Shown here piece after piece: positions 1-12,830 of a stretch of DNA of 13,483 nucleotides. The notes below the pieces were generated by a model. It saw nothing but the letters and a program-made list of their open reading frames with translations. It was not told where the DNA came from and did not search any database. The position numbers and the translations under genes are program-made. Source of the stretch: Clostridiales bacterium UBA4717. GTDB lineage: Bacteria > Bacillota > Clostridia > Oscillospirales > CAG-272. The DNA lies in assembly GCA_002404395.1 (NCBI GenBank), contig DHJP01000119.1:1-13483 (forward strand), given 5' to 3'. How positions within the stretch are numbered: position 1 is the first letter of the stretch; every line of letters starts with the position of its first letter.

Positions 1-8
1 TTGCAGTT

Positions 9-46
9 TGTCAAGTACTTTTTCAAGTTTTTTCAAAAGTTTTTTC
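9..46 (-). promoter_or_regulatory. Leftward promoter (-35 plus phased A-tracts), probably of an rRNA/tRNA operon; -10 lies outside the window
   Basis: On the minus strand a perfect -35 box TTGACA (plus 9-14) is preceded by three A-tracts (plus 19-23, 28-33 and 40-45). They are spaced about one helical turn apart, which is the pattern of an UP element or intrinsically bent DNA. The -10 box would fall left of position 1, so the promoter is only half visible. An A-tract-rich UP region plus a consensus -35 is typical of stable-RNA promoters in Firmicutes. That an rRNA or tRNA operon lies to the left is inferred, not seen. Confidence 0.55.
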
Positions 47-212
47 AGGAGCTCTCGCGACGCTTTCCGCTCGCTCTTCTGCCGCTCCTTTTCTTACTCT
101 TGTTACTCTTCCTCTAGTACTTATCTAAACTCGCTTCTTCGGTTCGCCGGCTTCTCTTCACCCGCTCACCCTTCGCTCTATACTTCCCTCGCTTCCTTTC
201 GTCAGCTCGCTT
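47..212 (-). other. Purine-rich transcribed leader between two leftward promoters
   Basis: Read on the minus strand this stretch is strongly purine-rich and repeats the short words GCGAG and GAGCG about nine times. It starts at the predicted transcription start of the upstream promoter and ends at the A-tracts of the downstream one. The plus strand holds a 68-codon open frame of mostly Ser/Phe/Arg, which reflects the pyrimidine bias and does not resemble a protein. No minus-strand ATG with a ribosome binding site was seen, so the region looks non-coding. Confidence 0.4.
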
Positions 213-275
213 AGTATACCACATCCCTTTATATATTGTCAAGAGGAAAATCAGAAAAAAATCAAATATTTTGAT
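213..275 (-). promoter_or_regulatory. Strong leftward sigma-A promoter with extended -10 and AT-rich upstream dyad
   Basis: On the minus strand TTGACA (plus 237-242) is followed after 18 bases by TATACT (plus 213-218), with a TG one base before the -10 (extended -10). Just upstream is a perfect AT-rich inverted repeat ATCAAA-TAT-TTTGAT (plus 261-275), placed where an UP element or operator would lie. Transcription would begin near position 206 and run left through the purine-rich leader to a second promoter. Tandem promoters of this kind commonly drive rRNA operons; the target gene is outside the window. Confidence 0.6.
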
Positions 276-332
276 TTATTGTCGTTTTTTACATATTCGT
301 TATCCCATACGCAGATATTATATGTAAATGCG

Positions 333-362
333 TTGAATACACTACCGGTTTACGGCAATAAT
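333..362 (+). promoter_or_regulatory. Candidate weak sigma-A promoter for the yetF-like gene
   Basis: TTGAAT (333-338) and AATAAT (357-362) are separated by 18 bases, a weak match to the sigma-A consensus. It is the best rightward candidate I found between the leftward promoter and the first gene. It would give a leader of about 155 bases containing the palindrome at 437-446 and the paired hairpins at 448-519. I see nothing else recognisable in 276-436. Confidence 0.25.
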
Positions 363-436
363 AACTTCAAACGCAAAAAATACAGCTCAAGCGCAGCCAA
401 ATGAAGTTTCAGGTTTCGCGCCTATTTCCCCTTAAA

Positions 437-446
437 ACGGGCCCGT
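437..446. repeat. Perfect 10-base palindrome
   Basis: ACGGGCCCGT is fully self-complementary and sits immediately before the paired REP-like hairpins in the leader of the yetF-like gene. It could be an operator half or simply part of the compound repeat next to it. No function can be assigned. Confidence 0.35.
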
Positions 447-447
447 C

Positions 448-519
448 AATTTTTCATCGGCTTCGCCGATTCGAAAATTCACGTTTGCTTTTTTGAGTCG
501 GCTACGCCGACATGAAAAA
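448..519. repeat. Inverted pair of REP-like hairpin elements
   Basis: Two related hairpins lie head to head. The first has stem ATCGGC/GCCGAT (456-461 and 465-470, loop TTC) inside an outer AT helix (448-455 with 473-479). The second has stem GTCGGC/GCCGAC (497-502 and 506-511, loop TAC). Read on the minus strand, the second unit aligns with the first along most of its length: TTTTTCAT, then CGGC, a three-base loop, GCCGA, then an A-rich tail. Two inverted copies of a short palindromic unit in an intergenic space resemble REP/BIME elements. The pair ends six bases before the start codon of the next gene. Genome-wide copy number cannot be judged here. Confidence 0.45.
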
Positions 520-524
520 TACTT

Positions 525-1253
525 ATGTCAACAATATTTATACGCACCGTTTTGATCTATATAATCCTCATTGCCGCCATGCGGGTCATGGGTAAGCGCC
601 AGGTAGGGCAGCTTGAGGTTTCGGAGCTTGTTACCACCTTTCTTCTCTCTGAGCTTGCCTCATTCACCATCACGGACGACGGAATACCGCTTTTGTTTTC
701 GGTCATACCCATACTCACACTGCTTTCGCTCGAAGTTGTCGGATCATTCACCGTAAACAAAAGCCCGCTTTTGAAAAAGCTGTTCATCGGTCATCCCACC
801 ATTTTAATACGAAAGGGTAAAATCATCGAAGCCGAGCTGCTGCGAAACCGCATAAGCATAGAAGAATTGTTGAGCCAGCTCAGGCTCAAAAACGTTACTG
901 CTGTAGACGATGTCGAATATGCTATACTTGAGCAGAACGGGCAGCTGTCAGTCATCCCGAAAGCCGATAAACTCCCGGCAACGCCGAGCGACCTCAAGCT
1001 GACGGTAAGCGAAGTCGGAATTGCTCACGCAGTCGTGATCGACGGCACTGTAAACGAGGAGAATCTACGGCTTTCCGGGCGTGACCGTGTCTGGTTAGAG
1101 CAATATCTCAAATGTGAAGGGATCGCCTGCAATAAGGTTTTTTTGCTCACAGTCGATGATGCCGGAAATATTCTGCTTACTAAGAAATCAAAAGACCGCC
1201 GCAAAGACGTTCCGAATATTACAGCAACAAGAAACGGAGACAATAGATCATGA
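525..1253 (+). CDS. YetF-like DUF421 membrane protein
   Basis: This 242-residue protein belongs to the DUF421/YetF family, whose biochemical role is not established; Bacillus members are linked to the spore or cell envelope. Three hydrophobic segments are visible near the N-terminus (about residues 5-20, 34-48 and 54-75), followed by a cytosolic domain. Family signatures are MGKRQVGQLEVSELV (22-36), GHPTILIRKGKI (89-100) and the NVTAVDDVEYAILEQNG stretch (123-139). ATG at 525 is the only credible start, because an in-frame stop lies at 513-515 and no start codon comes between. No Shine-Dalgarno sequence precedes it; a GC-rich hairpin ends at 511 instead, so translation is probably inefficient or unusual. 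The stop overlaps the next start (ATGA), showing translational coupling. Family assignment is firm, function unknown. Confidence 0.92.
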   Translation: MSTIFIRTVLIYIILIAAMRVMGKRQVGQLEVSELVTTFLLSELASFTITDDGIPLLFSVIPILTLLSLEVVGSFTVNKSPLLKKLFIGHPTILIRKGKIIEAELLRNRISIEELLSQLRLKNVTAVDDVEYAILEQNGQLSVIPKADKLPATPSDLKLTVSEVGIAHAVVIDGTVNEENLRLSGRDRVWLEQYLKCEGIACNKVFLLTVDDAGNILLTKKSKDRRKDVPNITATRNGDNRS

Positions 1254-1615
1254 GAAGCACCATAACCGCGTTTATATTGCTCGCCGCGATAATCGTTTTG
1301 CTCATCGCAAACGCCGTTATACTGAACGGATGCGGAAAAAAGCTAATCAGCATGGCAGATGAGCTCGGCGATGAGCCGATCGCCGCCTCGGAATCAGCCG
1401 AAGAATTGGTAAAATATTGGCGCAAAATTCAACCGTTCGTTTCAATATCGGTCACTCATGCGGAAGCGGAGTCGGTCTGTACGGCAGCCGAACTTATTGC
1501 CGCGTACGCAAAAGTCGGAGACAACTCGGAGTTTACCGCCGCAAAGCGGATCTTCAAAGATGCCGTAAGGCATATAATCTTTTCGGGAGAATGTTCTTTT
1601 GAGTCGATCTTATAG
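1250..1615 (+). CDS. DUF4363 family small membrane-anchored protein
   Basis: This 121-residue protein starts at the ATG that overlaps the stop of the DUF421 gene. A single hydrophobic segment (residues 5-24) anchors it, and the remaining roughly 95 residues form a mostly helical extracytoplasmic domain with charged and alanine-rich helices. The overall pattern (N-terminal anchor, W-R-K-IQP-F-V motif near 56-63, C-terminal AAKRIFKDAVRHI helix) matches DUF4363. In Clostridia this family very often follows a YetF-type gene, which suggests the two act together. An LNGC sequence ends at Cys28 and could be a non-ideal lipobox, so lipidation is possible but not clear. The gene ends four bases from the stop of the convergent TIGR03936 gene, leaving no room for a dedicated terminator. 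Function unknown. Confidence 0.85.
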   Translation: MRSTITAFILLAAIIVLLIANAVILNGCGKKLISMADELGDEPIAASESAEELVKYWRKIQPFVSISVTHAEAESVCTAAELIAAYAKVGDNSEFTAAKRIFKDAVRHIIFSGECSFESIL

Positions 1616-1619
1616 TCGG

Positions 1620-2303
1620 TCATCTGAAATCCGTAACACCGTCCGAAAGTTTTACACTTGTTCTGAGAACAGTATAATACTCGGTCATGGCATCGTCAAA
1701 ATCAATTCCGAACTTTTCCGATATTGCCTTGACGACATATTCCGGATTAAGGTAATCATTACTTCCGCTTGACAACATGGCGTTTATTTCTATACTTCCG
1801 TTTTTGAAATCCGCCTCGGCACGACGTATCATAGGCGAAATATCAACAAGCTTTTCCCCGCCGCTTTTTGTGCGCTTCATTATCTCAAGTTTTCCCGAAA
1901 GCAAGGAATTTATATCCGAAGCAAGCTTTGCGGAAGCCTTACGGCTGCCGAGAGTTATTGTATATCCTGCGTATGCTATTTCCTGCGTTTTATGTTCGGG
2001 AGTCCATACACCGTTTACCGCCATACCGCACGGAAACTGCGCAGCGATTCTTTCTGCAACCTCTGCATCGGACATATCGCCCTCAAGTTTGAAGTCCACA
2101 AACTCACAAAGGCTTTCGGCACCTACCGAAAGGTTCATGGCAAAAACCAGCTTCGGTTTAGGGTTGAAGCCTTCGGTGTACCATATCGGCACGCTGGCTC
2201 TGATTATCATTCTTCCCATCGTCCTTACAAGATCAAGATGAGAGATGAACTGCATTTTTCCCGTTTGAGTAAAGCCTAATCTTACAGGTCGCGTTTGCAC
2301 CAT
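1620..2303 (-). CDS. TIGR03936 (DUF2344) radical-SAM-associated protein
   Basis: This 227-residue protein has the hallmark N-terminal pattern of DUF2344/TIGR03936: a beta strand, then K-x-FISHLDLVRTMGR (residues 17-30), then GFNPKPKLVFAMNLSVG (45-61). Longer family members are fused to the TIGR03960 radical-SAM protein; here they are separate but overlapping genes. I chose ATG at 2303 over an upstream in-frame ATG at 2345 because GGAGG lies nine bases before it and the homologous region begins right there. It overlaps the end of the radical-SAM gene by 22 bases, so the two are translationally coupled. Its molecular function is unknown; it is presumed to be a partner or substrate-binding subunit of the radical-SAM enzyme. 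In many Clostridia the pair precedes rng and rplU, but here a convergent DUF4363 gene follows instead. Confidence 0.9.
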   Translation of the reverse strand: MVQTRPVRLGFTQTGKMQFISHLDLVRTMGRMIIRASVPIWYTEGFNPKPKLVFAMNLSVGAESLCEFVDFKLEGDMSDAEVAERIAAQFPCGMAVNGVWTPEHKTQEIAYAGYTITLGSRKASAKLASDINSLLSGKLEIMKRTKSGGEKLVDISPMIRRAEADFKNGSIEINAMLSSGSNDYLNPEYVVKAISEKFGIDFDDAMTEYYTVLRTSVKLSDGVTDFR

Positions 2304-4156
2304 GTTCTGACACCTCCGAGCTTGGATGCTCCGCACTGCGAGCATTTTTGCGAACAGTTGGGAGTGGTTTCGTTTCTGTGAGCTTTGCGGTTTTCATTTA
2401 ACAAAAATTCTTTTGACACGCCGCAGTCGATAAGATCCCACGGCAGTATTTCATCATCCGCAAATCTGCGGTTTGCATAAAACGCTGGGTCAATGCCTGC
2501 CGCTTCAAAACATTCGAGCCACTTGTCGTAGTCAAAACACTCATCCCAGCTGTCAAAGCACATATTCCGCTTGCGCGTCTCAAGCAACACACGCGAAAGC
2601 TTGCGGTCCCCCCGCGCAAGCACCGCTTCAATACGGCTCACTTTTGCGTCATGATGATTATATTTTACATATTTCCCTATACGTTCGCCTATATATGCCT
2701 GTTTCTTGTATACTGTTTCAAGGTCGTCCTGCGCTTCCCATTGAAATGCGGTAAACGGTTTGGGTATAAAGGTCGAAACGCTGATATTCACACTCGGCGG
2801 CCGTCTGAAACGCGGATCGCCTTTTTCATTTTCCCGCTTCAGCTCGTAGTATTTTCCGACCACACGATCCGCAAGCTCGGCTATTCCGGCAAGGTCTTCA
2901 TATTCCTCAGTCGGCTGTCCCAGCATAAAATACAGCTTGACCTGATTTTTGCCGCCCTCAAACGCGATCTTGCAGGCGTGCATCAGATCTTCCTCGGTCA
3001 CATTTTTGTTTATTGCATCGCGCAGCCGCTGAGTTCCTGCCTCGGGTGCGAACGTCAAACCGCTGGCACGCACTGACGAGACCTTTTCCATAAGTTCTTC
3101 GGAAAAACTGTCCGCTCTCAACGACGGCAGTGATAGGTTGACCCGTTTATCGTTCGTCCATTCGAGCAGACACTCGCAAAGCGGACGCAACTTTGAATAA
3201 TCGCTTATGCTCAGCGACACAAGCGAGATCTCATCATATCCGGTCGCAGCACACAGCTTTTTCGCCTGCTCATTCAATACTTCCGGCGTTTTTTCGCGTA
3301 TAGGTCGGTATACCATTCCCGCCTGACAAAAGCGGCAGCCGCGTATACAGCCCCTGTATACCTCAAGCGTCACACGGTCATGAACGGTTTCTATAAACGG
3401 CATTACGAATTTGTCCGGAAAATATGCCGTGTCCATATCCTTCATTATCCGCTTGGTTATCTTAGTCGGAATATCGTTTGCAAGCGGTACAAATTTCGCG
3501 ATCGTTCCGTCGGCATGGTATTCGACATCATAAAGCGACGGCACATAAAAGCCCTCAAGCTTTGCCGCTTCATGCAGAAAATCACGCTTTGTATATCTGC
3601 CCTCCGCTTTCATCTTAATATAAAGCTTCGTAAACTCCGGCAATGCTTCCTCGCCCTCTCCGATACTGAAAACGTCAAAAAAGTCGGCAATCGGCTCGGC
3701 ATTGTAAGCGCAAGGACCGCCTCCGATTATGATAGGAGCGTCCTCCCCGCGTTCGGCTGCAAGCATAGGTATCCCGGCAAGCTCCAGCATATAAAGCACA
3801 TTCGTATACGACATTTCGTACTGAAGCGTAAAAGCCACAATATCAAAATCCGCGACCGGATCGCCGCTTTCAAGTGCATAAAGCGGCATATTTCTGCGCT
3901 TCATCTGCTCGCCCATATCCATCCACGGCGCGTATACACGCTCACACCAAATATCGTCTTCACGATTCAGCGAACCGTACAATATGCGTACTCCGAGGTT
4001 CGACATTCCGATCTCGTAAGTGTCGGGGAAGCAAAAGGCAAAACGCGCCTTTACCGCCGCTTTATCCTTTATTACTTCGGCAAACTCGCCACCGGAGTAA
4101 CGTCCGGGCTTTTCAACACGCTTTAAAATGCGTTCAAACGGTATATTACCACTCAT
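2282..4156 (-). CDS. TIGR03960 family B12-binding-domain radical SAM protein
   Basis: This 624-residue protein has a B12-binding-like N-terminal domain (about residues 35-175, including GVRILYGSLN and IIIGGGPCAYNAEP). A radical-SAM core follows, with the cluster motif C270-x3-C274-x2-C277 in YRGCIRGCRFCQAG, which would ligate a [4Fe-4S] cluster and S-adenosylmethionine. Core strands include LTFAPEAGTQRLRDAINK (about 370-387). The C-terminus carries a second cysteine set, C601-x3-C605-x2-C608 plus C620, which could bind another cluster or zinc and which I recall as recurrent in this family. The substrate is unknown. ATG at 4156 has GAGG ten bases upstream. The gene lies 196 bases after the 907-residue membrane protein and overlaps its TIGR03936 partner by 22 bases. 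The family is confident; the reaction is not known. Confidence 0.93.
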   Translation of the reverse strand: MSGNIPFERILKRVEKPGRYSGGEFAEVIKDKAAVKARFAFCFPDTYEIGMSNLGVRILYGSLNREDDIWCERVYAPWMDMGEQMKRRNMPLYALESGDPVADFDIVAFTLQYEMSYTNVLYMLELAGIPMLAAERGEDAPIIIGGGPCAYNAEPIADFFDVFSIGEGEEALPEFTKLYIKMKAEGRYTKRDFLHEAAKLEGFYVPSLYDVEYHADGTIAKFVPLANDIPTKITKRIMKDMDTAYFPDKFVMPFIETVHDRVTLEVYRGCIRGCRFCQAGMVYRPIREKTPEVLNEQAKKLCAATGYDEISLVSLSISDYSKLRPLCECLLEWTNDKRVNLSLPSLRADSFSEELMEKVSSVRASGLTFAPEAGTQRLRDAINKNVTEEDLMHACKIAFEGGKNQVKLYFMLGQPTEEYEDLAGIAELADRVVGKYYELKRENEKGDPRFRRPPSVNISVSTFIPKPFTAFQWEAQDDLETVYKKQAYIGERIGKYVKYNHHDAKVSRIEAVLARGDRKLSRVLLETRKRNMCFDSWDECFDYDKWLECFEAAGIDPAFYANRRFADDEILPWDLIDCGVSKEFLLNENRKAHRNETTPNCSQKCSQCGASKLGGVRTWCKRDL

Positions 4157-4213
4157 ATAATGCTAACCTCATTCCATCATCGTCGGGCTCATCTGACACA
4201 AAAATAATCACGC

Positions 4214-4250
4214 GAGCGCACAACTGCGCCGATACCGCAACGGTGCGCTC
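4214..4250 (-). terminator. Nested GC-rich hairpin with T-rich tail, probable terminator of the 907-residue gene
   Basis: A perfect 8-base stem GAGCGCAC/GTGCGCTC (4214-4221 and 4243-4250) encloses a smaller TGCG/CGCA stem. Read leftward it is followed, after about eight bases, by ATTATTTTTG, which could act as the U-tract. It lies about 100 bases beyond the stop of the membrane-protein gene and about 60 bases before the radical-SAM start. It is therefore either a terminator or attenuator between the two genes, or a structured leader for the second. The gap before the T-run makes the terminator reading moderate only. Confidence 0.4.
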
Positions 4251-4272
4251 TCACCCGACTTTAAAAATCAAC

Positions 4273-4313
4273 GGGGTTGTCCAAAAAGCCAATTTGACTT
4301 TTAAGGCAACCCC
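4273..4313. repeat. Imperfect 41-base stem-loop, possible terminator or insertion-element end remnant
   Basis: GGGGTTG (4273-4279) pairs with CAACCCC (4307-4313). The helix continues with small bulges through CC/GG and AAAAG/CTTTT to a nine-base AT-rich loop. On the leftward strand the hairpin is followed by GTTGATTTTTAAA, so it could assist termination of the 907-residue gene. The GGGGTTGTCC-AAAAAG style of end also resembles terminal inverted repeats of clostridial insertion elements or MITEs, but no transposase or clear target duplication is visible. The identification is tentative. Confidence 0.35.
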
Positions 4314-4352
4314 TTTCATTCAAATCAATACGTCAAAAATTCAAGCGGTGTT

Positions 4353-7076
4353 TTATTCCGAAAATGCTTGTGCCGCAAGCATCGGGATCATCCAAAAGAG
4401 CTGATAAAGTGCCGCATACGCCGATCCGATATCAAGCTTTCCGAAAAGCGTAACCGCATATACCGCCACAAGCGCAAGCACAGCGCTGACTATTCCGAAC
4501 ACGCCGTGAACCTTGGTTATATATTTGACACGATCGCACTGCGAAAGTGCCTTGAGCAGTGCCTTGACCGATCCGCTTGAGATCACTCCGCTGTCAACGC
4601 AAGTCTCATTCGCTTCGCTTTCGGGACTCTTTTCATCGGCTCTGACCACTTTGACCGGGAAGTTTTCTTTCAGCTTCAGCTTTTTCATCACCAGCCCGTC
4701 TCCGATATTGGGGTCGAGCGTACGGATACCGATACAGATACCCGCTTTATACAATTGCTTGAAGATAAGCTCGTATTCAAGATCGGCAGTATATTGAACA
4801 GTAAACTTCGCAAGGATCTCTTCCTCGCTTGCAATATACATTATCCGTGATCCTGTGTTCTGCTCAAGCGCGAGGTCTTTATCGCCGTATGGCGTTTCAA
4901 AGCCCAGGCGCTTCATATAATCATTGCCACCGATATATGTTCCGACGCCGTCAATCTGCACATGGAGACCGTCGTCATCGCGGTCGAGCATCCGCACGTC
5001 ACTGCTGTGTCCGATATCTATTGTCGCAAGTTCAAACACATCCTTCAGCGGACCGCCGATCACAGAAAACACACTTGCGGCATCACGGATCACACGATCT
5101 ATACGATTGTCTCCGTAAACCTTTACGCTTCCGATCTTCACTCCCGCCGCCGGGAATATATCACGATCGTCAAAGTAAACGACCGCGCTGTCGGTATATT
5201 CATTGACCGCACCCTCTCCGAGGATCGCGCTTTCGGAGGCGCAGGCATTCTTTGATGCGCGATAAAGCGGCAAGCTGTATGTAAGCATGATACTGCCCGG
5301 CAGCGCGAGTATTACCGTAAGGTATACGATCGTCGCCACGGTACATGTGTCATATTTCATAAACAAACCGAACGCAAGCGCAAGCAATGCTTCGGCAATG
5401 GTAAGCGCGAACATGACCGCGATATGCTTGCGATTATGCTCCCTTTCCCTGATACGCTTAAAGAAGCCGTCAATGCGAGACGCTCTCACCACGCTGAATT
5501 TCTTCGCGTCGTCAGGCAGATACTCGCTGAAGCCCTCAGAGCCTTTAGCCTCTGCAGTCTCAGTTACCGCAAACTTGGCTTTTCCCGAGGAAGCGATCGC
5601 AAATCCCATAGCCTCGCTTTTGATGTGCATAAGCTCATATGCAAGCAAAAGCACCATAGCGGCGGCGACCGTGAAATTATACAGGCGTGCACCCTTGATA
5701 CCGCCGCCGTTCATCATGACCGAGGTATAGGCAACTGACGCCGCAAGCAATATCGCCGGCACACTTTCCGGAACGAATTTCAGTTTAAACAGAGAGTAAA
5801 TGCCGAACCCGAGTCGGTCAAACGCTGTCAGCGCACACAAAACCACAAGCTGGAGATCCACCATAGAGTAGATCACGGGATACACCGAAATATTCAGGAC
5901 ATTCGGTAAAGTAATGCCGAACAGATTCGCGTTTTCAAAAACAAAGAGTAACAGTGCAAACACAAGGCAGGCAAAGAAGCCGATCGTCTTCCTCCTGAAT
6001 GCGGACGCATATTCGCGTTCGATCTCTCCGTTCTGCGCACGATCGGTATATTCGTACTTTTCGTCGAACATTTCAAAGAAATGCTTTTTTCTCGGCGCTT
6101 TATATTTGGAAAGATTCTGTGCCTCGTTTATGATCTCCTGCGCTTCTGCGCTCTGCTTTTGTTCTTCCTTTTGTCGCTTGCCGCCGAATAATGCGATCAG
6201 TCCGAATTCGGTGCTGTCAAACTCCGCACCGTCAAGCCCGGTGTATTCCTTGCCGCCGTCCTCATCACTCACATACCCTCTGTCGGGCATTGGTTCGCTT
6301 TTATCGGCATTATCATTTTTTTCCGCCGCATCGGCATCCGACGCAACCTCAGCTACCTCATCCGACTCGGATCGCGATCTATCTGTATCTACAGAATCCG
6401 TGACGAACTCAAACTCATCATCTTCCTCATCGTTTCCGTAATATCCTGCCACGCCGTTTGAAATATCACCGATGATCTTACCGAGAAACCCGTCGTCATC
6501 ATCGGAGTCGGTATTCGGCACATCAGTCCACCCCTTTGTTTTGTCGTCCACGACAGTGTCGCGCACAGCTTCGTGCGCAGTCAAAGGTCTGCTCAGCGCT
6601 TCTTCCTCATCCTCATACCACGGATCCGAGTCATCGCCGTCATCGGGATCATCGGTTACTTCGGCAACTTCGGGCAGAGTTACATCTGCGTTGTCGCCCG
6701 AAACCTCGCTGACAGTCCGCTCATCCGATTCGGGAGCACCGTCGCTGCTGACAGGCTCGGGATCGACTTCCTGCACTTCGGGATTCTCATTATCGTTTGA
6801 CGATGCAGTCTTATCTTCATCGGCAGGCATATTCATAACACTGCGCAAAAGCGCCTCAAGGTCGTCTCCGAATTCGTCCGGCTCTCCCTTGATAAGCTCC
6901 GCTTCCGCCGCCTTCGCCGCTGTATCGCTGATATGTATGGACGCCTTCTTCGGTACGTTTTCGTTTTTATCGTCCGAAGCAGATGCTTCGATACCGCCTT
7001 TAAGCTTTTTTAACAGTTCGCTTGCGGATATCGCGTCCATTGCATCACGATTTTCATCATCTCTGCTGTTCGGCAT
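4353..7076 (-). CDS. Large membrane protein with degenerate P-type (P1B-like) ATPase architecture and acidic N-terminal extension
   Basis: This is a 907-residue protein. Residues 1-300 are strongly acidic, Ser/Asp/Glu-rich and low complexity; a basic stretch near 325-365 leads into the membrane. Eight hydrophobic segments are visible (about 364-382, 396-419, 439-456, 467-485, 551-573, 578-600, 857-878 and 886-905). That is the P1B-ATPase order: four, a small loop, two, a large loop, two. The segment ALPGSIMLTYSLPLYRASKN (591-610) followed by GAVNEYTDSAVVYFDD (622-637) aligns without gaps with the CPC-to-DKTGT stretch of CopA-type pumps as I recall it. That alignment puts Asp636 at the phosphorylated aspartate, but KTGT reads DRDI. 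Later equivalents are GGPL for HPL (674-677), YIGGNDY for the N-domain GN strand (714-720) and RTLDPN for TGDN (785-790); TGES and GDGxND are absent. Transport activity is therefore unlikely. ATG has AAAGGA nine bases upstream. The gene sits 23 bases after rlmB. The fold assignment is my inference; the partner and role are unknown. Confidence 0.85.
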   Translation of the reverse strand: MPNSRDDENRDAMDAISASELLKKLKGGIEASASDDKNENVPKKASIHISDTAAKAAEAELIKGEPDEFGDDLEALLRSVMNMPADEDKTASSNDNENPEVQEVDPEPVSSDGAPESDERTVSEVSGDNADVTLPEVAEVTDDPDDGDDSDPWYEDEEEALSRPLTAHEAVRDTVVDDKTKGWTDVPNTDSDDDDGFLGKIIGDISNGVAGYYGNDEEDDEFEFVTDSVDTDRSRSESDEVAEVASDADAAEKNDNADKSEPMPDRGYVSDEDGGKEYTGLDGAEFDSTEFGLIALFGGKRQKEEQKQSAEAQEIINEAQNLSKYKAPRKKHFFEMFDEKYEYTDRAQNGEIEREYASAFRRKTIGFFACLVFALLLFVFENANLFGITLPNVLNISVYPVIYSMVDLQLVVLCALTAFDRLGFGIYSLFKLKFVPESVPAILLAASVAYTSVMMNGGGIKGARLYNFTVAAAMVLLLAYELMHIKSEAMGFAIASSGKAKFAVTETAEAKGSEGFSEYLPDDAKKFSVVRASRIDGFFKRIREREHNRKHIAVMFALTIAEALLALAFGLFMKYDTCTVATIVYLTVILALPGSIMLTYSLPLYRASKNACASESAILGEGAVNEYTDSAVVYFDDRDIFPAAGVKIGSVKVYGDNRIDRVIRDAASVFSVIGGPLKDVFELATIDIGHSSDVRMLDRDDDGLHVQIDGVGTYIGGNDYMKRLGFETPYGDKDLALEQNTGSRIMYIASEEEILAKFTVQYTADLEYELIFKQLYKAGICIGIRTLDPNIGDGLVMKKLKLKENFPVKVVRADEKSPESEANETCVDSGVISSGSVKALLKALSQCDRVKYITKVHGVFGIVSAVLALVAVYAVTLFGKLDIGSAYAALYQLFWMIPMLAAQAFSE

Positions 7077-7099
7077 CGTTAATGTCCTTTCATCAGAAT

Positions 7100-7897
7100 T
7101 TATTTTTCGACACTTCTGTGCTGACGTGCCGCTTCACTCATAACCACTGCCGTCGCACATGAAACATTAAATGAAGTCACCTTGCCGTACATAGGTATAG
7201 AAACCACGAAATCGCTCAGCTCTTTAATGATACGCGATACACCGTTACCTTCACTGCCTACCACGATCGCCGCAGGCCCGGTAAAATCCACATCATAGTA
7301 AGGTCTGCCATCGGCTTCGGCGGTATATATCCAAACACCGAGTTTTTTGAGTTTTTCTACTGCCGAAGCAAGATTTGACACTTTTGCGATCGGAAGATGT
7401 TCAAGCGCGCCTGCCGACGCCTTTTCAACCACTGCGGTCACTCCCGAAGCACGTCTCTTGGGAATGATCAATCCGTGAGCGCCAACACCCTCGGCAACCC
7501 TGATGATCGCGCCGAGATTATGCGGATCTTCAATACCGTCGGCGATCAGAATAAGCGGTTTTTCGCCGCGCGCTTCAGCATTCGCCACGATATCCTCAAC
7601 CGAGCAATAGTCCTTGGCTGCGGCAGCTGCAATAATCCCCTGATGAACCGTACCGTGCGCCATTGCATCAAGCTTCGGCTTTTCACATTCGACGATCGGA
7701 ACGCCGGCTTCTATCGCTTCCGCCACAAGCATTGTGATAGAGCCTTCGCGCTCGCCTTTTTGCACATATATTTTATCTATACTGCGCGAACCCTTAAGCA
7801 ATTCACGCACCGCATTTCTTCCGAGAACGAGGTTTTCGTCTATCTCCGCATTTGAAAAACGTTCGTTTTTTACATCTTTTTGCCGATATTTATTCAT
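7100..7897 (-). CDS. rlmB: RlmB-like TrmH-family 23S rRNA 2'-O-methyltransferase
   Basis: This 265-residue SPOUT-class enzyme would transfer a methyl group from S-adenosylmethionine to the 2'-OH of a guanosine in 23S rRNA (Gm2251 in E. coli numbering). The N-terminal RNA-binding domain (about residues 22-95) shows VLGRNAVRELL and AHGTVHQGI. The catalytic domain shows the three TrmH motifs: NLGAIIR (127-133, with the catalytic-type Asn and Arg), IVVGSEGNG (211-219) and SIPMYGKVTSFNVSCATAV (233-251), which form the knotted cofactor site. The length is typical. ATG at 7897 has AGAGG close upstream and an extended -10 promoter begins about 30 bases before it. The 907-residue membrane protein follows after 23 bases, probably in the same transcript. 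TrmH paralogues such as TrmL-type enzymes are possible, but the N-terminal domain favours RlmB. Confidence 0.9.
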   Translation of the reverse strand: MNKYRQKDVKNERFSNAEIDENLVLGRNAVRELLKGSRSIDKIYVQKGEREGSITMLVAEAIEAGVPIVECEKPKLDAMAHGTVHQGIIAAAAAKDYCSVEDIVANAEARGEKPLILIADGIEDPHNLGAIIRVAEGVGAHGLIIPKRRASGVTAVVEKASAGALEHLPIAKVSNLASAVEKLKKLGVWIYTAEADGRPYYDVDFTGPAAIVVGSEGNGVSRIIKELSDFVVSIPMYGKVTSFNVSCATAVVMSEAARQHRSVEK

Positions 7898-7929
7898 AAC
7901 GCCTCTGAAATATATAATTATTTAATGTA

Positions 7930-7938
7930 ATTATAACA
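7930..7938 (-). promoter_or_regulatory. Extended -10 promoter for rlmB
   Basis: The minus strand reads TGTTATAAT, a perfect -10 box (plus 7930-7935) with the TGn extension. At a spacing of 17 the -35 position reads GTACAA, a poor match, which is usual for extended -10 promoters. Transcription would start near 7923, about 25 bases before the rlmB ATG. This places rlmB at the head of its transcription unit. Confidence 0.5.
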
Positions 7939-8017
7939 TAGCTTTGCCGATTTGTACATACCAAAAGCTATTTTTTTTCGATAATTTTACGGAAATTCCG
8001 ACAGCCTTTACCATAAC

Positions 8018-8049
8018 AAAAAAACCGTCGCTTACGCGACGGTTTTTTT
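8018..8049 (-). terminator. Rho-independent terminator after the zinc-ribbon gene
   Basis: A perfect 7-base stem CCGTCGC/GCGACGG (8025-8031 and 8036-8042) with loop TTAC is flanked by seven A's and seven T's. It would work in both directions, but the only gene leading into it is the zinc-ribbon gene, whose stop is 15 bases away. It separates the sigma factor/zinc-ribbon unit from the rlmB unit. Confidence 0.9.
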
Positions 8050-8063
8050 GTATCAAAAACTGA

Positions 8064-8345
8064 TTATTCCTGTTCGGCTCTGATAGCCGCATAGCATTCG
8101 CTGCAATAAACAGGCTTATCGCTGCTCGGCTGGAAAGGAACCTTTGCTTCTCCGCCGCATCTAGCGCAAGTCGCAGTGAACAGCTCTCTGGGAGCCTTTG
8201 CCGCATTCTTTTTCTTGTCACGGCAAGCTTTGCATCTCTGAGGCTTGTTCTGAAATCCCTTTTCGGCGTAAAACTCCTGCTCGCCGGCAGTAAAGGTGAA
8301 TTCAGCACCGCATTCCTTGCAAACTAAAACTTCGTCCTGATACAT
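8064..8345 (-). CDS. Zinc-ribbon (Tbcl-type) domain protein
   Basis: This 93-residue protein carries two four-cysteine zinc sites. The first is C9-x2-C12 with C38-x2-C41, within an EVLVCKECGAEFTFTAGEQ...RCKAC pattern characteristic of the zf-Tbcl family. The second is C60-x2-C63 with C81-x2-C84 (CARCGGEAKVPFQP...PVYCSEC). It is cytoplasmic, with a basic KKK linker between the sites that could contact nucleic acid. I chose ATG at 8345 rather than the in-frame ATG at 8417. GAGGT lies about ten bases upstream of 8345, the conserved domain begins there, and the longer version would run into the structured spacer. It follows the sigma-factor gene on the same strand and is closed by a strong terminator. 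Function unknown; nucleic-acid or ribosome binding is plausible. Confidence 0.85.
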   Translation of the reverse strand: MYQDEVLVCKECGAEFTFTAGEQEFYAEKGFQNKPQRCKACRDKKKNAAKAPRELFTATCARCGGEAKVPFQPSSDKPVYCSECYAAIRAEQE

Positions 8346-8377
8346 TTTGTGTCTACCTCGCTTTGTAAAATGGTAAT

Positions 8378-8460
8378 TTTCGCCCTCGACGGATTTAAAC
8401 CGCCACCTTTGACACACATTGATAATTGCAGCAACGCTCTACTTAAGCTATACGGGCAAA
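8378..8460 (-). ncRNA. tRNA-like cloverleaf in the spacer between sigma factor and zinc-ribbon gene
   Basis: Read leftward, TTTGCCC (8460-8454) pairs with GGGC-G-AAA (8385-8378, one bulged G). It closes a junction with three arms: a D-like arm GCTT/GAGC preceded by TA, as at tRNA positions 8-9; an anticodon-like arm GTTG/CAAT with a ten-base loop; and a T-like arm GGCGG/CCGTC with the seven-base loop TTTAAAT. The words TATAGCTTAAGTAGAGC and GGCGGTTTAAATCC closely resemble the D and T regions of bacterial tRNAs. Against a working tRNA are the oversized anticodon loop, the missing GG in a short D-loop, the TTT instead of TTC in the T-loop, the long variable region and no CCA. It may be a decayed tRNA or a tRNA-mimic leader element. 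Confidence 0.35.
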
Positions 8461-8470
8461 TATATGAATT

Positions 8471-9028
8471 TCAAGAGAGTGCATTTTTCAGTTTAACGCG
8501 TATTCGATAAATAGTATTGTCCACCGATTTAAGCGGAATACCGAGACGCTCGGCTATCTCGCTCCGGTCAAGCTCGGCGAGCTTCAGCATAAGCACCTCA
8601 AGCTCCGACTCGGATAAAAGTTTTTTTACTTTTCCGAGTAAAAACTCAGCGCTGTCCGACTCATCGACCTCACTTGTAGGATCGGGCATGGTAAGCTCGT
8701 TCGGATCAAGTTCGTCCGCCGAACGGTCAAGGTCACGGGCACGCTTACGCAAAATGGTTATAAGCCCGTTTCTGAGACAGATCTGTGCATACAATCCGAA
8801 AGTCAGACCCAAATCGCGATCGTATGTTTTAGCCGCCTTAAAAAGCAGTATCCCCGTCTCCTGAAGCAGATCTTCGCGATCCTCGCGGGTCATACCGTCA
8901 TAAGCAAACTTTTCAACCATATTGCGGCATAAACCTTCATATTTGGCGAGCACTTCATCAAATGCGGAATCGTCTCCCTGCCTGACACGCTCAACAAGTG
9001 CATTGATATCCGTATCGTTAGTGCTCAT
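8471..9028 (-). CDS. Sigma-70 family RNA polymerase sigma factor (SigH/ECF-like, regions 2 and 4)
   Basis: This 185-residue protein has a sigma region 2 (about residues 21-98) with DLLQETGILLFKAAKTYD (53-70, core-binding and -10 recognition helices) and the TFGLYAQICLRNGLITILRK helix (76-95). An acidic linker (about 105-128) leads to region 4 (136-183), whose helix-turn-helix is RSEIAERLGIPLKSVDNTI (155-173) for -35 recognition. The two-domain size fits an ECF or small SigH-like factor. No anti-sigma factor is adjacent. ATG at 9028 has AGGTGG close upstream and a near-consensus promoter just before it, so the gene seems well expressed in growing cells. The zinc-ribbon gene follows in the same direction with no terminator between. 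The regulon is unknown. Confidence 0.88.
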   Translation of the reverse strand: MSTNDTDINALVERVRQGDDSAFDEVLAKYEGLCRNMVEKFAYDGMTREDREDLLQETGILLFKAAKTYDRDLGLTFGLYAQICLRNGLITILRKRARDLDRSADELDPNELTMPDPTSEVDESDSAEFLLGKVKKLLSESELEVLMLKLAELDRSEIAERLGIPLKSVDNTIYRIRVKLKNALS

Positions 9029-9057
9029 ATTGCCACCTATGCCTTTGACTTACCCAT

Positions 9058-9085
9058 ATTATATCATATTTTTGTAAAATGTCAA
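9058..9085 (-). promoter_or_regulatory. Near-consensus sigma-A promoter of the sigma-factor gene
   Basis: On the minus strand a perfect TTGACA (plus 9080-9085) and a perfect TATAAT (plus 9058-9063) are separated by 16 bases, with an additional TGA extension before the -10. Transcription would start near 9051, about 22 bases before the ATG. This is the strongest protein-gene promoter in the window. Confidence 0.8.
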
Positions 9086-9228
9086 TAGTTTTTTTGCTTT
9101 TTCGGAATTTTGTTCTGACAAAAATTTACAAAATTCTTAAATATTTCCATAATGTTCCGGCTAAATGCACAGAAAATGAAAGTATTATGTCAAAAGCGGC
9201 GGTACAAGGCAAACTTCCGATTTTTCGG

Positions 9229-9774
9229 TCAGTCAAGCAGATAATCGACTTCACCGGTAAGTATCGCGTAAAGTCCTTTATAAAGCACTTCCGGCTTGCT
9301 GTCAAAATTGTACATCATCACGTCGAGCAATTGTTTTGATTCCACACCGAGAGAAAGTTTCATAACGATCTCGTCCTTTTCGCTTATCTCGCAGTCCATC
9401 ATATACTTATCATCGCCGATTTGACGCGAAGTACAGGTGATCTTGGAGCCGCGTTCCTTGAACGAAAGCAGTCGCAGTGCGCTTCTGAGGCTCTTCTCGC
9501 GTATGGCATTCAGGATATTGCTTTGCAGTTCATTGACGACCATCCTGCCTTTTTCGGTGATCTCATACTCCGCATCGCCGTTAACAAGCTTTTCACTGAT
9601 ACTGCCGTTATCAATAAGCTCGGCAAAACACGCGGCAAAATCAAAATAATTCACATATCCGTCCTGAACCGAGATCTCGCTGACAGTCGTAAAATCAAGC
9701 GGTCGGTTAAGCTGACGCAACAGGTACAGAATAAAAATTTTAATATCTTTCGGATCGCTAAGAGGCGCCTGCAT
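9229..9774 (-). CDS. DUF4364 family winged-helix protein
   Basis: This 181-residue protein begins with a winged-helix-like domain (about residues 8-85). It contains DIKIFILYLLRQLNRPLD, then YFDFAACFAELIDNGSI, and YEITEKGRMVVNEL (70-83), the recognisable wing and dimer helix of PadR/MarR-like folds. The C-terminal half (about 90-181) is the alpha/beta part typical of DUF4364 and ends with LYAILTGEVDYLL. It is probably a DNA-binding or protein-interaction regulator, but no target is known. ATG has AAAGGA about 11 bases upstream. It lies downstream of the substrate-binding lipoprotein on the same strand, with a strong hairpin in the 109-base gap, so it may be partly co-transcribed. The assignment rests on whole-length resemblance to the family as I recall it. 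Confidence 0.82.
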   Translation of the reverse strand: MQAPLSDPKDIKIFILYLLRQLNRPLDFTTVSEISVQDGYVNYFDFAACFAELIDNGSISEKLVNGDAEYEITEKGRMVVNELQSNILNAIREKSLRSALRLLSFKERGSKITCTSRQIGDDKYMMDCEISEKDEIVMKLSLGVESKQLLDVMMYNFDSKPEVLYKGLYAILTGEVDYLLD

Positions 9775-9825
9775 TATTTTACAGTCCTTTCAATTGGTAT
9801 GCGTTGGTTTGTTCAGACGGCAACA

Positions 9826-9859
9826 TGAGCCGCAAACCGTGCCGGCGGTTTGCGGCTCA
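9826..9859 (-). terminator. Very stable 14-base-pair hairpin after the lipoprotein gene
   Basis: TGAGCCGCAAACCG (9826-9839) pairs perfectly with CGGTTTGCGGCTCA (9846-9859) around a six-base loop. It starts 24 bases beyond the stop of the substrate-binding protein. No T-run follows on either strand, so it is not a classical intrinsic terminator. It could slow 3' exonucleases or lower read-through into the DUF4364 gene. Confidence 0.5.
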
Positions 9860-9883
9860 CAAAATCGAACTGCTGTCGCGGGA

Positions 9884-11581
9884 TCAGTCCTCGGTCGGAA
9901 GATACTTTTCGTAGTTCTTCATCGTAACCTTTTCAAAGATCTTGCCGCCGAAATAATCGGTATCGACTCCGGATATTACTTTCTTATTGATAAGATAGAA
10001 GTCCTGATTGAACACGATCGGGATCACCGGCATATCGGAAACAAGCATTTCTTCCGCCTTGTGGAGGTATTCGCTCTTTTCCTTTCTGCTGTTTACTGCC
10101 TGTGCCTCATCTATCACAGCCTCATACTCGGCATTGTCGTAGCCCGAAATGTGAGGAACAAGGTCGTACTTGTCGTTCTGCATATCAATCTTCATGCCGG
10201 CATAACTCTTTGCAAAGGATGCCATATAGTTGAATGCATCATTCGAAAGCACTTCGTAATCCACTGCCAGAATATCGAAATCGCGATCACTGTACGCGTT
10301 CGAGAACTTCTTCGCGTTGGAAAGTTTCTTTGTCTTCACATTAAAGCCGAGTTCATTCCAGATCTCGGCACAGTACTCGGCAATAGCTTCTTCGGTCGCA
10401 CTCTCAAAGTATGAGATCGTAAAGCTGCCGCCCTTGACCTTCGCTTCGGAAAGCAATGCCTTTGCTCCTTCGATGTCGCCTTTTGAAGAGATAAGCGTTC
10501 CGCCGTTTTTACGGAAGCTGTCCTTGCTTGTTTTGTCCGAAGTCATTTCGGGAACAAATCCGGTTGCCGGTTTCGCAAACACCACAAGCTCGCTGATCGC
10601 TTCGCGGTCAAGCGCCATCGAAAGCGCCTTGCGCACTCTTGAATCGGAAAGCAGCTTATTATCATTGTTTACAATATACGTATGAACCGACGGGATATCA
10701 TTGACAACCGCTTTTGATTTATACTCCGAACGCTTCTCGACCGGAATATCACCGAGGTAGAACAATTCGCCCGCCTCATATTTTTCAAGCAATTCGTCAA
10801 GCGTCAGAGTATAGTCGACATTGAGTCTGTACGGCTTGACCATCTTGTCGAGATTATCTTTTTCTCTGTCACGGAAATAGTAATTGTTGCGCTCAAGCGT
10901 AACCGTTTTTCCATAGTTCAGATTCTTTACAACGAACGGACCGCTGGTTACCATAGTCGAAGCGGAAGTTGCCCAATTGTCATAACGGGTAACAACATCC
11001 TCGCGCATAGGCACGAGCGCAGGACTTGCCAGACGTTCGATAAACAGATCGGTATCAATCTTATTTTCAAACTCGATCTCCAAAACATAGTTATCGACCG
11101 AAGCGATTCCGAGGTCGTCGATAGAGCAATCGCCCATTTTAACCGCTTTTGCATTCTTTATATCAAACAAGAGTGAAGCCGCAGGGCTGTCAAACTCGGG
11201 ATCAAGCACGCGCTTCCAAGCATAGACCACATCATCAGCGGTCAGGTTGCGTCCGTCGCTCCACATTGTCTGCTTGAGAGTAATGTACATTTTATATGTA
11301 CCGTCGCGCTCGTCTTCCTTAAACTCATAGCTGTCCATAAGATCGTTTTTGACCTTGCCGTTTTCATCAAGCGATACCAAACCGGCATAGATCAAGCCGA
11401 ACACCTTTGCAGTCCCATCATTGATAAGCGTGTATCCCGGATCAAAGTCGCGGATCTCATCGGTAATGTACACATTGATCTGTGCGCCTTTGTCCTCAGA
11501 ATCCGGCTTTAATCCGCCGCAACCGGTAAGACAAGCCGCAAGCATCAAAAGCGCAAGCACTGCAGATACTAATCTTTTCAT
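9884..11581 (-). CDS. Oligopeptide-type ABC transporter substrate-binding lipoprotein (SBP family 5)
   Basis: This 565-residue lipoprotein would capture peptides or similar solutes outside the membrane and deliver them to an ABC permease. It starts with a lipoprotein signal (residues 1-20, KR then a hydrophobic core) ending in lipobox LTGC with Cys21. The family-5 hallmark W-SDGRNLTADDVVYAWKRVL lies at 107-126, and LSMALDREAI is the typical central helix. I chose ATG at 11581 because AGGAGG lies 12 bases upstream and the signal peptide begins there; the in-frame ATG at 11650 would put 23 extra polar residues before it. No permease or ATPase genes are adjacent, so it is an orphan component. 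A sigma-A promoter with an overlapping palindrome precedes it. The ligand is unknown. Confidence 0.92.
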   Translation of the reverse strand: MKRLVSAVLALLMLAACLTGCGGLKPDSEDKGAQINVYITDEIRDFDPGYTLINDGTAKVFGLIYAGLVSLDENGKVKNDLMDSYEFKEDERDGTYKMYITLKQTMWSDGRNLTADDVVYAWKRVLDPEFDSPAASLLFDIKNAKAVKMGDCSIDDLGIASVDNYVLEIEFENKIDTDLFIERLASPALVPMREDVVTRYDNWATSASTMVTSGPFVVKNLNYGKTVTLERNNYYFRDREKDNLDKMVKPYRLNVDYTLTLDELLEKYEAGELFYLGDIPVEKRSEYKSKAVVNDIPSVHTYIVNNDNKLLSDSRVRKALSMALDREAISELVVFAKPATGFVPEMTSDKTSKDSFRKNGGTLISSKGDIEGAKALLSEAKVKGGSFTISYFESATEEAIAEYCAEIWNELGFNVKTKKLSNAKKFSNAYSDRDFDILAVDYEVLSNDAFNYMASFAKSYAGMKIDMQNDKYDLVPHISGYDNAEYEAVIDEAQAVNSRKEKSEYLHKAEEMLVSDMPVIPIVFNQDFYLINKKVISGVDTDYFGGKIFEKVTMKNYEKYLPTED

Positions 11582-11672
11582 ATGATAACGATTCCTCCTC
11601 TGCCCCCGGATACAAGGGCGTAGAACAAAATTTGCCTGTTTATCCCGCAATTTTCGTGTTGCGTAAACATTC

Positions 11673-11707
11673 TATGATATTATATCATACAATTTTGATT
11701 TTAGCAA
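11673..11707 (-). promoter_or_regulatory. Sigma-A promoter of the lipoprotein gene with palindrome over the -10 box
   Basis: On the minus strand TTGCTA (plus 11702-11707) and TATAAT (plus 11679-11684) are 17 bases apart, with a TGA extension before the -10. The -10 box lies inside the perfect inverted repeat TATGATA-TTA-TATCATA (11673-11689), which could be a repressor operator. Transcription would start near 11672, giving a leader of about 90 bases. Confidence 0.6.
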
Positions 11708-11806
11708 TTATGAAAATGAGAATAAATAAAGATTATGACATATGCACAATTTCCGACCTCTTAAATTGTAAGTTTTCACAATGCTTTTTATTTTTACCAT
11801 TTGTTT

Positions 11807-11835
11807 TTGGTACGCTTGCGGGCATACTTTATAAT
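11807..11835 (+). promoter_or_regulatory. Candidate sigma-A-like promoter of gpr
   Basis: TTGGTA (11807-11812) and a perfect TATAAT (11830-11835) are separated by 17 bases, about 30 bases before the gpr start. Family knowledge says gpr is usually transcribed by the forespore sigma factors F and G, but I do not see a convincing sigma-G pattern here. Confidence 0.4.
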
Positions 11836-11864
11836 AGATTCTTACTAACGAAGGAGCAATGCGT

Positions 11865-12770
11865 TTGAAAAAGCTGTCAGAATACCGCAGGACCGACCTT
11901 GCCAGCGAGTGCCGCACGACCGAGCGTGAGCACGACGGCAAATCGGATGACAAAGGAATAAATTTTTCCGAATACGAAAAGAGTGGCTTTAACATATGCG
12001 AGCTTGACGTCACTACCGCCGAAGCCGCATCGGCGATCGGAAAGAAATGCGGCAAGTATATCACCGTCGATGTCGGAAGGCTCTGGCATGAGACCGACGA
12101 GCGCGTTGCCGCCTGTTCCGAGCTGATCTCCGGAATAATCGGTTCGATGATAAGCGAGCTGTGCCCCGAAAGGCATTCGCTTTCCTATCTGATAGCCGGA
12201 CTTGGAAACCGATATATCACCTCGGACGCCATAGGTCACGAAACCCTCCGGGAAATAGTAGTTACACGCCATATAAAAAATGCCGATCCGAAGCTTTACT
12301 CGATGCTCGGAAACATTTCGGTCGCGGCAATTGCTCCCGGCGTTACCGGTCAGACCGGAATAGAGACTTTGGAAGTTATACGGCAAACCGTAGACACCGT
12401 AAAGCCGGATCTGCTCATTGCCATAGATGCGCTTGCCGCGTGTGAGCTTTCGCATCTTGCCACCACGGTTCAGATCACAAATGCCGGCATAGCGCCCGGA
12501 TCGGGTATCGGAAACCGCCGCGATTCTATCGACCGTGAAAGCGTCGGATGTCCCGTAATAATCGTCGGAGTTCCGACCGTCGTCGAATCCTCCGCGCTCG
12601 TGTACGATGCACTTTACAAGGCAGGCATTGAAGCCGACAGCATTGACCCGAAACTTCATGAAATACTTGAAAACGGCAGAGGCTTTTTTGTCACTCCGAA
12701 AGAAAGCGATATTGTGCTTATCGAGCTGTCAAAGCTGCTTGCAAATGCAATAAACTCTGCGCTGATATGA
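11865..12770 (+). CDS. gpr: GPR endopeptidase (spore germination protease)
   Basis: GPR degrades small acid-soluble spore proteins during germination; it is made in the forespore as a zymogen that self-processes (MEROPS A25). The protein is 301 residues from the TTG start. It begins MKKLSEYRRTDLA, with RTDLA typical of the GPR propeptide. Conserved motifs, numbered from that start, are AGLGNRYITSDAIG (111-124), AIAPGVTGQTGIET (155-168), IAIDALAACELS (185-196) and GIAPGSGIGNRRDSI (208-222). The two aspartates equivalent to the essential pair are Asp121 and Asp188. I prefer TTG at 11865: AAGGAG (11851-11856) lies eight bases before it, whereas ATG at 11859 would be only two bases away. spoIIP follows after 60 bases, a common pairing in spore formers. 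Confidence 0.95.
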   Translation: MKKLSEYRRTDLASECRTTEREHDGKSDDKGINFSEYEKSGFNICELDVTTAEAASAIGKKCGKYITVDVGRLWHETDERVAACSELISGIIGSMISELCPERHSLSYLIAGLGNRYITSDAIGHETLREIVVTRHIKNADPKLYSMLGNISVAAIAPGVTGQTGIETLEVIRQTVDTVKPDLLIAIDALAACELSHLATTVQITNAGIAPGSGIGNRRDSIDRESVGCPVIIVGVPTVVESSALVYDALYKAGIEADSIDPKLHEILENGRGFFVTPKESDIVLIELSKLLANAINSALI

Positions 12771-12830
12771 ATAATCGCTGCCATATGCTCATATCCTGTA
12801 TCAATTCCAAGCACTTTGGGGAGACAGGCT

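Follow-up and report, generated by a model that had tools for sequence, protein, structure and literature searches.

We analysed a 13,483-nucleotide stretch of Clostridiales bacterium UBA4717 (contig DHJP01000119.1, positions 1 to 13,483; hereafter the window) and concentrated on a minus-strand gene at 4353..7076, which the open reading frame (ORF) listing translates into a protein of 907 residues; the plus-strand reading of the same interval contains 10 stops. We find that this protein, here called PSA for pseudo-P1B-ATPase, belongs to a clade that keeps the predicted body of a copper-transporting P-type ATPase and has lost the motifs of the pumping cycle. That PSA descends from a P1B copper-type ATPase, and is in this sense a dead P1B pump, we regard as close to certain from its homologues, predicted models and fold searches. 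Single-sequence searches with PSA returned no match in the PDB, nothing in Pfam but a chance match to Claudin, and a sub-threshold match to the heavy-metal P-type model TIGR01525 of NCBIfam (11.7 bits, E 0.087, residues 554-780). Two homologues, P0080 and P0066, likewise gave no family match when searched singly.

Models and fold search both place actuator (A), phosphorylation (P) and nucleotide-binding (N) domains between P1B helices as expected, and confident models were obtained for two distant members of the family. The protein begins with an acidic tail (residues 1-340; 6057..7076, with this and all following features of the gene on the minus strand). In the model, helices MA, MB, M1 and M2 occupy residues 351-495 (5592..6026; Gly425 lies in MB) and are followed by a shrunken actuator without TGE (residues 496-549; 5430..5591) and by M3 and M4 (residues 550-613; 5238..5429). 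The N domain (residues 643-756, approximate bounds; 4809..5150) retains G703 and G716, and the second half of the P domain, placed by hhalign (residues 757-835, also approximate; 4572..4808), lacks the GDGxND hinge. Helices M5 and M6 complete the chain (residues 837-906; 4359..4568) and bear an aromatic motif, YQxxWxxP, which is kept across much of the family, its W895 being Trp in just 20/120 sequences of the Ruminococcus-side set described below. The original prediction, made from the letters alone, had described eight hydrophobic segments in 4+2+2 order, and the model bears this out. It had also described a short actuator loop without TGES; the loop is short and lacks TGE, and spans 54 residues between M2 and M3 rather than the approximately 65 proposed.

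The former catalytic sites of PSA can be placed against those of a real pump residue by residue. M4 is broken in the model at residues 592-595 (LPGS), where LPG (592-594; 5295..5303) stands in place of the CPC metal site, and DDRDI (636-640; 5157..5171) stands in place of DKTGT. The two sites are 44 residues apart in PSA (592 to 636) and in the CopA of the same genome (396 to 440), in agreement with the proposed match of residues 591-636 to the CPC-to-Asp stretch of copper pumps, and this register was recovered independently by hhalign and by HMMER against LpCopA. IGGPL (673-677; 5046..5060), replacing SEHPL, lies 37 residues past the Asp in both proteins (673-636 in PSA, 477-440 in CopA), and TLDPN (786-790; 4707..4721), replacing TGDN and retaining its Asp as Asp788, lies 150 residues past it in PSA versus 152 in CopA.

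Homology between PSA and P1B pumps is statistical and goes beyond structural likeness alone. By hhalign, a profile of the PSA family aligned in order over 527 columns with one of 30 canonical P1B pumps encoded in genomes of the order (probability 99.4, E 8.6e-22), scoring 184.5 against 14.9-24.3 (E 0.088-0.75) for one reversed and five column-shuffled controls. A second profile, built from ten distant members, matched the 30 pumps at E 4.9e-28, the 21 of the L/M-DKTGT type at E 2.8e-25 and the nine with FDKTGT at E 1.5e-21. Against two P2-type pumps of the window's own genome, a thin control (n = 2), this profile gave E 0.048 and the near-relative family profile E 0.33. In the PDB, the distant-member profile found 19 sequences at E ≤ 0.001, every one a P1B pump or domain, with LpCopA at the top (4.3e-23). 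The near-relative profile also found LpCopA (E 2e-7), together with ribosomal protein eS8 (E 0.0014), a match made through the tail that we take as chance. Nine of the ten distant members matched TIGR01525, the best at E 3e-12, so that the relatives of PSA do track P-type ATPases; Pfam matched just one of the ten (E 0.0043). Neither of the two outcomes named in the original prediction as refuting it, a fold lacking the A, P and N domains or homologues that do not follow P-type ATPases, was seen. The curated cut-off of TIGR01525 (346 bits) was not reached by P0268, P0250, P0237 and P0057, which scored 21-35 bits. In a search of viral structures, all five matches at E ≤ 0.001 were annotated P-type pumps of giant viruses.

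The family also forms one clade. In a quick tree, as opposed to a finished careful search, 27 PSA rows lay together on one side of a single branch (Shimodaira-Hasegawa-like approximate likelihood ratio test, SH-aLRT, 100), apart from all 40 pumps. All eight outgroup matches that we fetched were ordinary pumps with CPC, DKTGT, TGES, SEHPL, TGDN and GDGIND.

We then read the catalytic columns, taken from MAFFT --add alignments, in 326 sequences: 66 near relatives, returned when proteins were searched using residues 350-907; a group of 20 loci drawn from 19 further families of the order; and two further sets of 120 (the best 120 of 394 and the best 120 of 757 proteins), one of them Ruminococcus-side. 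These sequences are not independent, being clustered at 90% with many alike, and the PSA of the window is present also as P0001. Of the near relatives, five carry a source name, in each case that of a hypothetical protein from a Clostridia or Ruminococcaceae bacterium. Control pumps were selected by script from 32 loci on the presence of DKTGT, an M4 motif and TGE, which left 30; a free comparison is therefore possible only at HP, TGD and GDGxND. At the SEHP column, His occurred in 0/326 PSA sequences, and HP in 29/30 control pumps; TGD was found in register in 0/326 versus 29/30, and GDGxND in 0/326 versus 30/30, confirming that the hinge is gone. No sequence of the 326 had DKTG in register or a CPC-, CPH- or SPC-like metal site in M4, and the letters TGE occurred within residues 490-550 in 1/326 (a member of the 20-locus set; 0/306 elsewhere). 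The strings DKTG, [ST]EHP, TGDN and GDGxND appeared six times among the 326, always out of register. Exact [ST]EHP and TGDN are missing also from 11/30 and 8/30 real pumps, respectively, so that string absence proves little, and a fair comparison is given by the counts of His and of TGD.

With metal-site, nucleotide-site, phosphorylation, dephosphorylation and hinge motifs lost, PSA should form no aspartyl-phosphate and should not pump, as originally proposed and as the sequence evidence strongly supports. The individual substitutions read from the window protein fared differently across the family. Asp636 is present here, and the column is Asp in 151/326 sequences (41/66 near relatives, 5/20 loci, 0/120 and, on the Ruminococcus side, 105/120); as the column is not conserved, we rejected Asp636 as a sign of activity. 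Similarly, LPG, DDRDI and GGPL stand in register in this protein and are not conserved family-wide, and the conserved part of TLDPN is its Asp. What the family does conserve is G716 (326/326), D788, the former TGD Asp (324/326), G703 (319/326) and the MB glycine G425 (314/326). Retention of these residues after loss of the catalytic motifs fits a body kept under selection without its chemistry. PSA frames were long and open in the genome loci surveyed. Among the matches listed, single internal stop codons were seen in G077, G091 and G022, and the frame is split in L101; these could be sequencing errors or local decay.

PSA is spread throughout the window's order, which we take to be Oscillospirales of GTDB. 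The distant-member profile scored E ≤ 1e-32 in 184/197 genomes of the order, a tally made by eye from the score table. The genomes above this value were G004, G025, G027, G033, G063, G068, G090, G104, G128, G133, G154, G165 and G176, eight of which are at most 77% complete. Absence of the family beyond the order is judged from genome samples and profiles: outside it, scores peaked at 61.7 bits with the A2 profile (279 class genomes), at 108.6 bits with the A4 profile (115 class genomes; best E 2.5e-31) and at 87.9 bits with the A7 profile (147 phylum genomes), compared with in-order copies of at least 121.3 bits in the A2 search (save G012, at 62.9), 212.3 bits (A4) and 138.6 bits (A7). Named members, among the matches listed, come from Pseudoflavonifractor, Ruminococcus, Hominimerdicola and Oscillospiraceae bacteria; P0080 is a Pseudoflavonifractor protein and P0250 a Ruminococcus protein. 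Real P1B pumps were found in 26/26 genomes of the order tested, indicating that PSA is an extra protein and not a replacement. Taken together, the clade and its order-wide retention suggest a pump body kept for a different job.

Three records in these searches carry labels that deserve comment. L042, titled Lachnospiraceae bacterium, carries PSA; its label may be mistaken, or PSA may extend outside the order. L062, titled Candidatus Colimorpha enterica (a genus placed in Bacteroidales by NCBI), holds a locus of rlmB, pseudo-pump and radical SAM (rSAM) gene like others in the sample and is probably a mislabelled or mixed metagenome-assembled genome. P0268 bears the source name 'Cu+-exporting ATPase [Ruminococcaceae bacterium FB2012]', scores 29.7 bits against the cut-off of 346 and lacks the pump motifs, a misannotation.

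The gene for PSA is consistently found behind rlmB, which encodes the 23S rRNA G2251 2'-O-methyltransferase (7100..7897, minus strand; TIGR00186, E 2e-66) and in the window lies directly upstream across a 23 bp gap. We examined the window and 80 genome loci (the best 80 of 101 relatives), of which 76 hold DNA upstream of PSA; the other five start at a contig end or have no ORF ahead of PSA. In 76/76, rlmB was directly upstream on the same strand (70 via ORF calling, 6 via tblastn), and it was upstream in 20/20 loci of 19 other families (17 and 3, respectively), hand-picked with f9 represented twice and f5, f17, f19, f20, f22 and f25 left out. The seeming absence of rlmB from nine loci was an artefact of taking the longest ORF, as tblastn located the gene in each of them, on the strand of PSA. 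Six of the nine were near loci, where rlmB had been hidden by a longer antisense ORF or left unclustered and the PSA frame starts at most 60 bases away from it. The gap was below 130 bp in 69/70 measured loci, by longest-ORF starts. When ORFs of the 20 distant loci were clustered, no family beyond rlmB and its three antisense shadows occurred in more than two loci. That the rlmB-PSA unit lasts while its surroundings are shuffled speaks for a tie in function or regulation, without implying contact.

The two genes are probably co-transcribed. A promoter-like site with a TG extension, TGTACA-17-TATAAT, precedes rlmB (7930..7958, minus strand), a pattern match only: the window holds 9 such sites versus 5.8 (sd 2.3) in shuffles, no clear excess. 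A simple pattern scan, itself showing no clear excess over shuffles, found no terminator-like site between rlmB and PSA on the same strand.

The region is flanked by the spore protease gene gpr (11859-12770, plus strand) and by a DUF421-DUF4363 pair (525-1615, plus strand); DUF421 recurs downstream in many near loci, but the 20 distant loci do not have it in common. A perfect TTGACA-16-TATAAT with TG extension lies at 9058-9085 (minus strand), just upstream of a SigH-like gene (8471-9028). YacP (PF05991), whose gene presumably follows rlmB in Bacillus, was present in just 9/39 genomes of the order examined. No match was returned by tRNA and Rfam scans of the window.

The N-terminal tail is poorly conserved and of variable length among relatives, and in residues 1-340 of PSA contains 97 Asp and Glu versus 34 Lys and Arg. 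In the model of P0080 it falls mostly below 50 in predicted local confidence (pLDDT). Near the start of many relatives there is a motif that we defined strictly as [ST][LIV][DE][DESAQK]I[LI]xE[FYV] (for example SLDDILAEF and SIDDIISEY) and that forms a short helix, at low confidence, in the P0080 model. Within the first 120 residues it occurred in 165/306 homologues (91/186 and 74/120) versus 0/1204 neighbouring ORFs, the latter being longest-ORF calls with spurious ones included. When 20 genomes were scanned for the motif as a DNA pattern, 20 matches appeared versus 2 for a backward control; six lay at pseudo-pump starts, two opened other proteins and the remainder fell within other frames. 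The two non-pump carriers (L160:4029-6068 and L161:4126-6000, both minus strand) are VanW/PG_binding_4/G5 proteins by Pfam and start SVDDIL(R/N)EY. Its occurrence on VanW-type proteins means that the motif may serve a cytosolic partner common to several membrane proteins. The tail peptide is thus a possible docking motif shared by membrane proteins of the order, which we offer as a lead rather than a demonstration.

Dead enzymes often regulate, as pseudokinases and pseudoproteases do. We propose that PSA, which retains eight helices, an actuator of smaller size and P and N domains that are still joined, would work without catalysis as a membrane platform, in which the P and N domains and transmembrane body could form a conformational or binding scaffold and the long acidic tail would present a short helical peptide for docking a cytosolic partner. 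Being made together with RlmB would tie its job to RlmB or to ribosome production, either directly or via shared regulation. On balance we lean towards this account of a P1B-derived, non-catalytic platform with a docking tail, made with RlmB. Whether PSA is specifically a non-catalytic scaffold or sensor tied to rlmB we judge evenly poised. The original prediction had suggested that the protein may sense, scaffold or regulate, and the rlmB linkage and N-terminal motif may lend this some substance. A bolder version, in which a copper pump became, throughout Oscillospirales, a core membrane hub without catalysis, tied to RlmB, docking a cytosolic partner via the motif shared with VanW proteins and so linking ribosome maturation to the membrane or wall, seems to us doubtful.

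Several observations weigh against the platform proposal. A shared fold shows no function, and the rlmB linkage could reflect co-transcription without contact. The strict tail motif is lacking in 141/306 homologues (some truncated), and the PSA of the window itself carries a divergent form, SASELLKKL (residues 17-25; 7002..7028, minus strand), recognised as docking-like only loosely by comparison with relatives. Five of the 13/197 genomes without a clear copy (G027, G063, G090, G104 and G133) are at least 90% complete. The free comparison with the 30 control pumps is confined to HP, TGD and GDGxND, as the remaining motifs (DKTGT, M4 and TGE) served to select those pumps. Finally, Asp at 636, found in 151 sequences and dominant on the Ruminococcus side, leaves room for chemistry that one branch may retain.

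Other roles for the retained body can be weighed on the same evidence. PSA might partner real P1B pumps and regulate them, for instance in a mixed dimer or as a metal sensor on a shared docking platform, as its P1B origin, its MB glycine and the presence of such pumps in every genome sampled would allow; we consider this unlikely, with rlmB the only gene common to more than 2/20 distant loci and a CPC-like site absent from all 326 sequences. Equally improbable is a permease, passive or driven in some other way, or a lipid handler, using the broken M4 cavity without ATP. M4 is still broken in the model at the former metal site, and a lipid lies near the corresponding place in human TMEM94 (PMC12134183), but two of the four sets mostly have Ser or Ala in place of the proline at the break (Ser in 71/120 and 115/120).

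Retained phosphotransfer is very unlikely. P-type pumps have a HAD-like P domain, and a shifted DxD (D637-x-D639) with T786 and D788 could in principle equip PSA to act as a phosphatase, to receive phospho-signals or to pump in some odd way. Three sets have an acid at residue 637, in 66/66, 16/20 and 120/120 sequences (Asp in 196/206), residue 639 is mostly acidic there, residue 786 is mostly Thr or Ser, and D788 is nearly invariant. On the Ruminococcus side, however, residue 637 is never acidic (Ala in 109 of 120) and residue 639 is Gln in 119/120, so that no single acid is kept family-wide at the old phosphorylation site (636, 637, 639), and the conserved nucleophile Asp and DxD of HAD phosphatases and phosphotransferases are not kept across the family. 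We therefore rejected the shifted DxD as a family-wide mechanism. Moreover, residues 800-850 hold no acid common to the three sets tabulated (their sole shared basic residue is 849), and TGE and the SEHP His are gone.

A place in a sporulation or germination programme is more improbable still. It is suggested by gpr and the SigH-like gene within the window, and Spo0A is over cut-off in 175/197 genomes of the order, so both are common; these neighbours are not kept in distant loci. PSA is also present without Spo0A over cut-off in G077 (98% complete, with one stop in the frame) and in G053, G069, G083 and G109 (90-95%), while G034 and G182, of the same genus as the latter four, do have Spo0A. 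A sporulation-only role is thus unlikely and was rejected, with the qualification that missing assembly parts could feign some cases. We give next to no credence to a decaying pseudogene or gene-calling artefact, which the internal stops and split frame noted above might suggest and which long open frames, near-invariant residues over 326 proteins and two confident distant models contradict.

Among the open-access matches listed, we found no description of a bacterial PSA family. The accessible part of a 2023 P-type ATPase review mentions no dead family and calls more prokaryotic families likely (PMC10654040), and the terms P-type, ATPase, transporter and pump are absent from the accessible part of a pseudoenzyme review (PMC10211241). 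The P-type fold is already known; a bacterial clade that spans an order and has this fold without the catalytic motifs is, within the literature searched, new. The sole dead P-type candidate that we found in print is TMEM94, a human protein without TGES, for which one group reported no ATPase activity or Mg2+ binding and micromolar affinity for AMPPCP (PMC12134183) and another, in the part of its report accessible, ATP-dependent Mg2+ uptake (PMC13322241). This dispute over TMEM94 also counts against our proposal. PSA adds a bacterial clade and makes testable what a pump fold is good for without pumping; its analysis also sets one misannotation right and brings out a fixed two-gene unit of rlmB and PSA.

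Compared with known systems, PSA resembles TMEM94/ERMA, by published description, in its P-type-like architecture, its lack of TGES and the non-Post-Albers behaviour that one group has proposed; TMEM94 differs in being eukaryotic, in having ten helices and a proposed Asp417, and in being structurally nearest SPCA rather than P1B (PMC12134183). Some members of the PSA family share a DxD-like pattern with HAD phosphatases, without a family-wide acid at 636, 637 or 639. The closest likeness is to P1B-1 copper ATPases (LpCopA, 3rfu/4bbj; ATP7B; HMA4), in predicted fold, 4+2+2 helices, domain order, the 44-residue CPC-to-Asp spacing and the N-domain glycines G703 and G716, whereas PSA differs from them in its shrunken actuator and in carrying a long acidic tail where the pumps have metal-binding domains. 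With the P1B pumps of its own genome (C62, C101 and C139), PSA shares common ancestry by profile, and in the tree these pumps stand separate from it.

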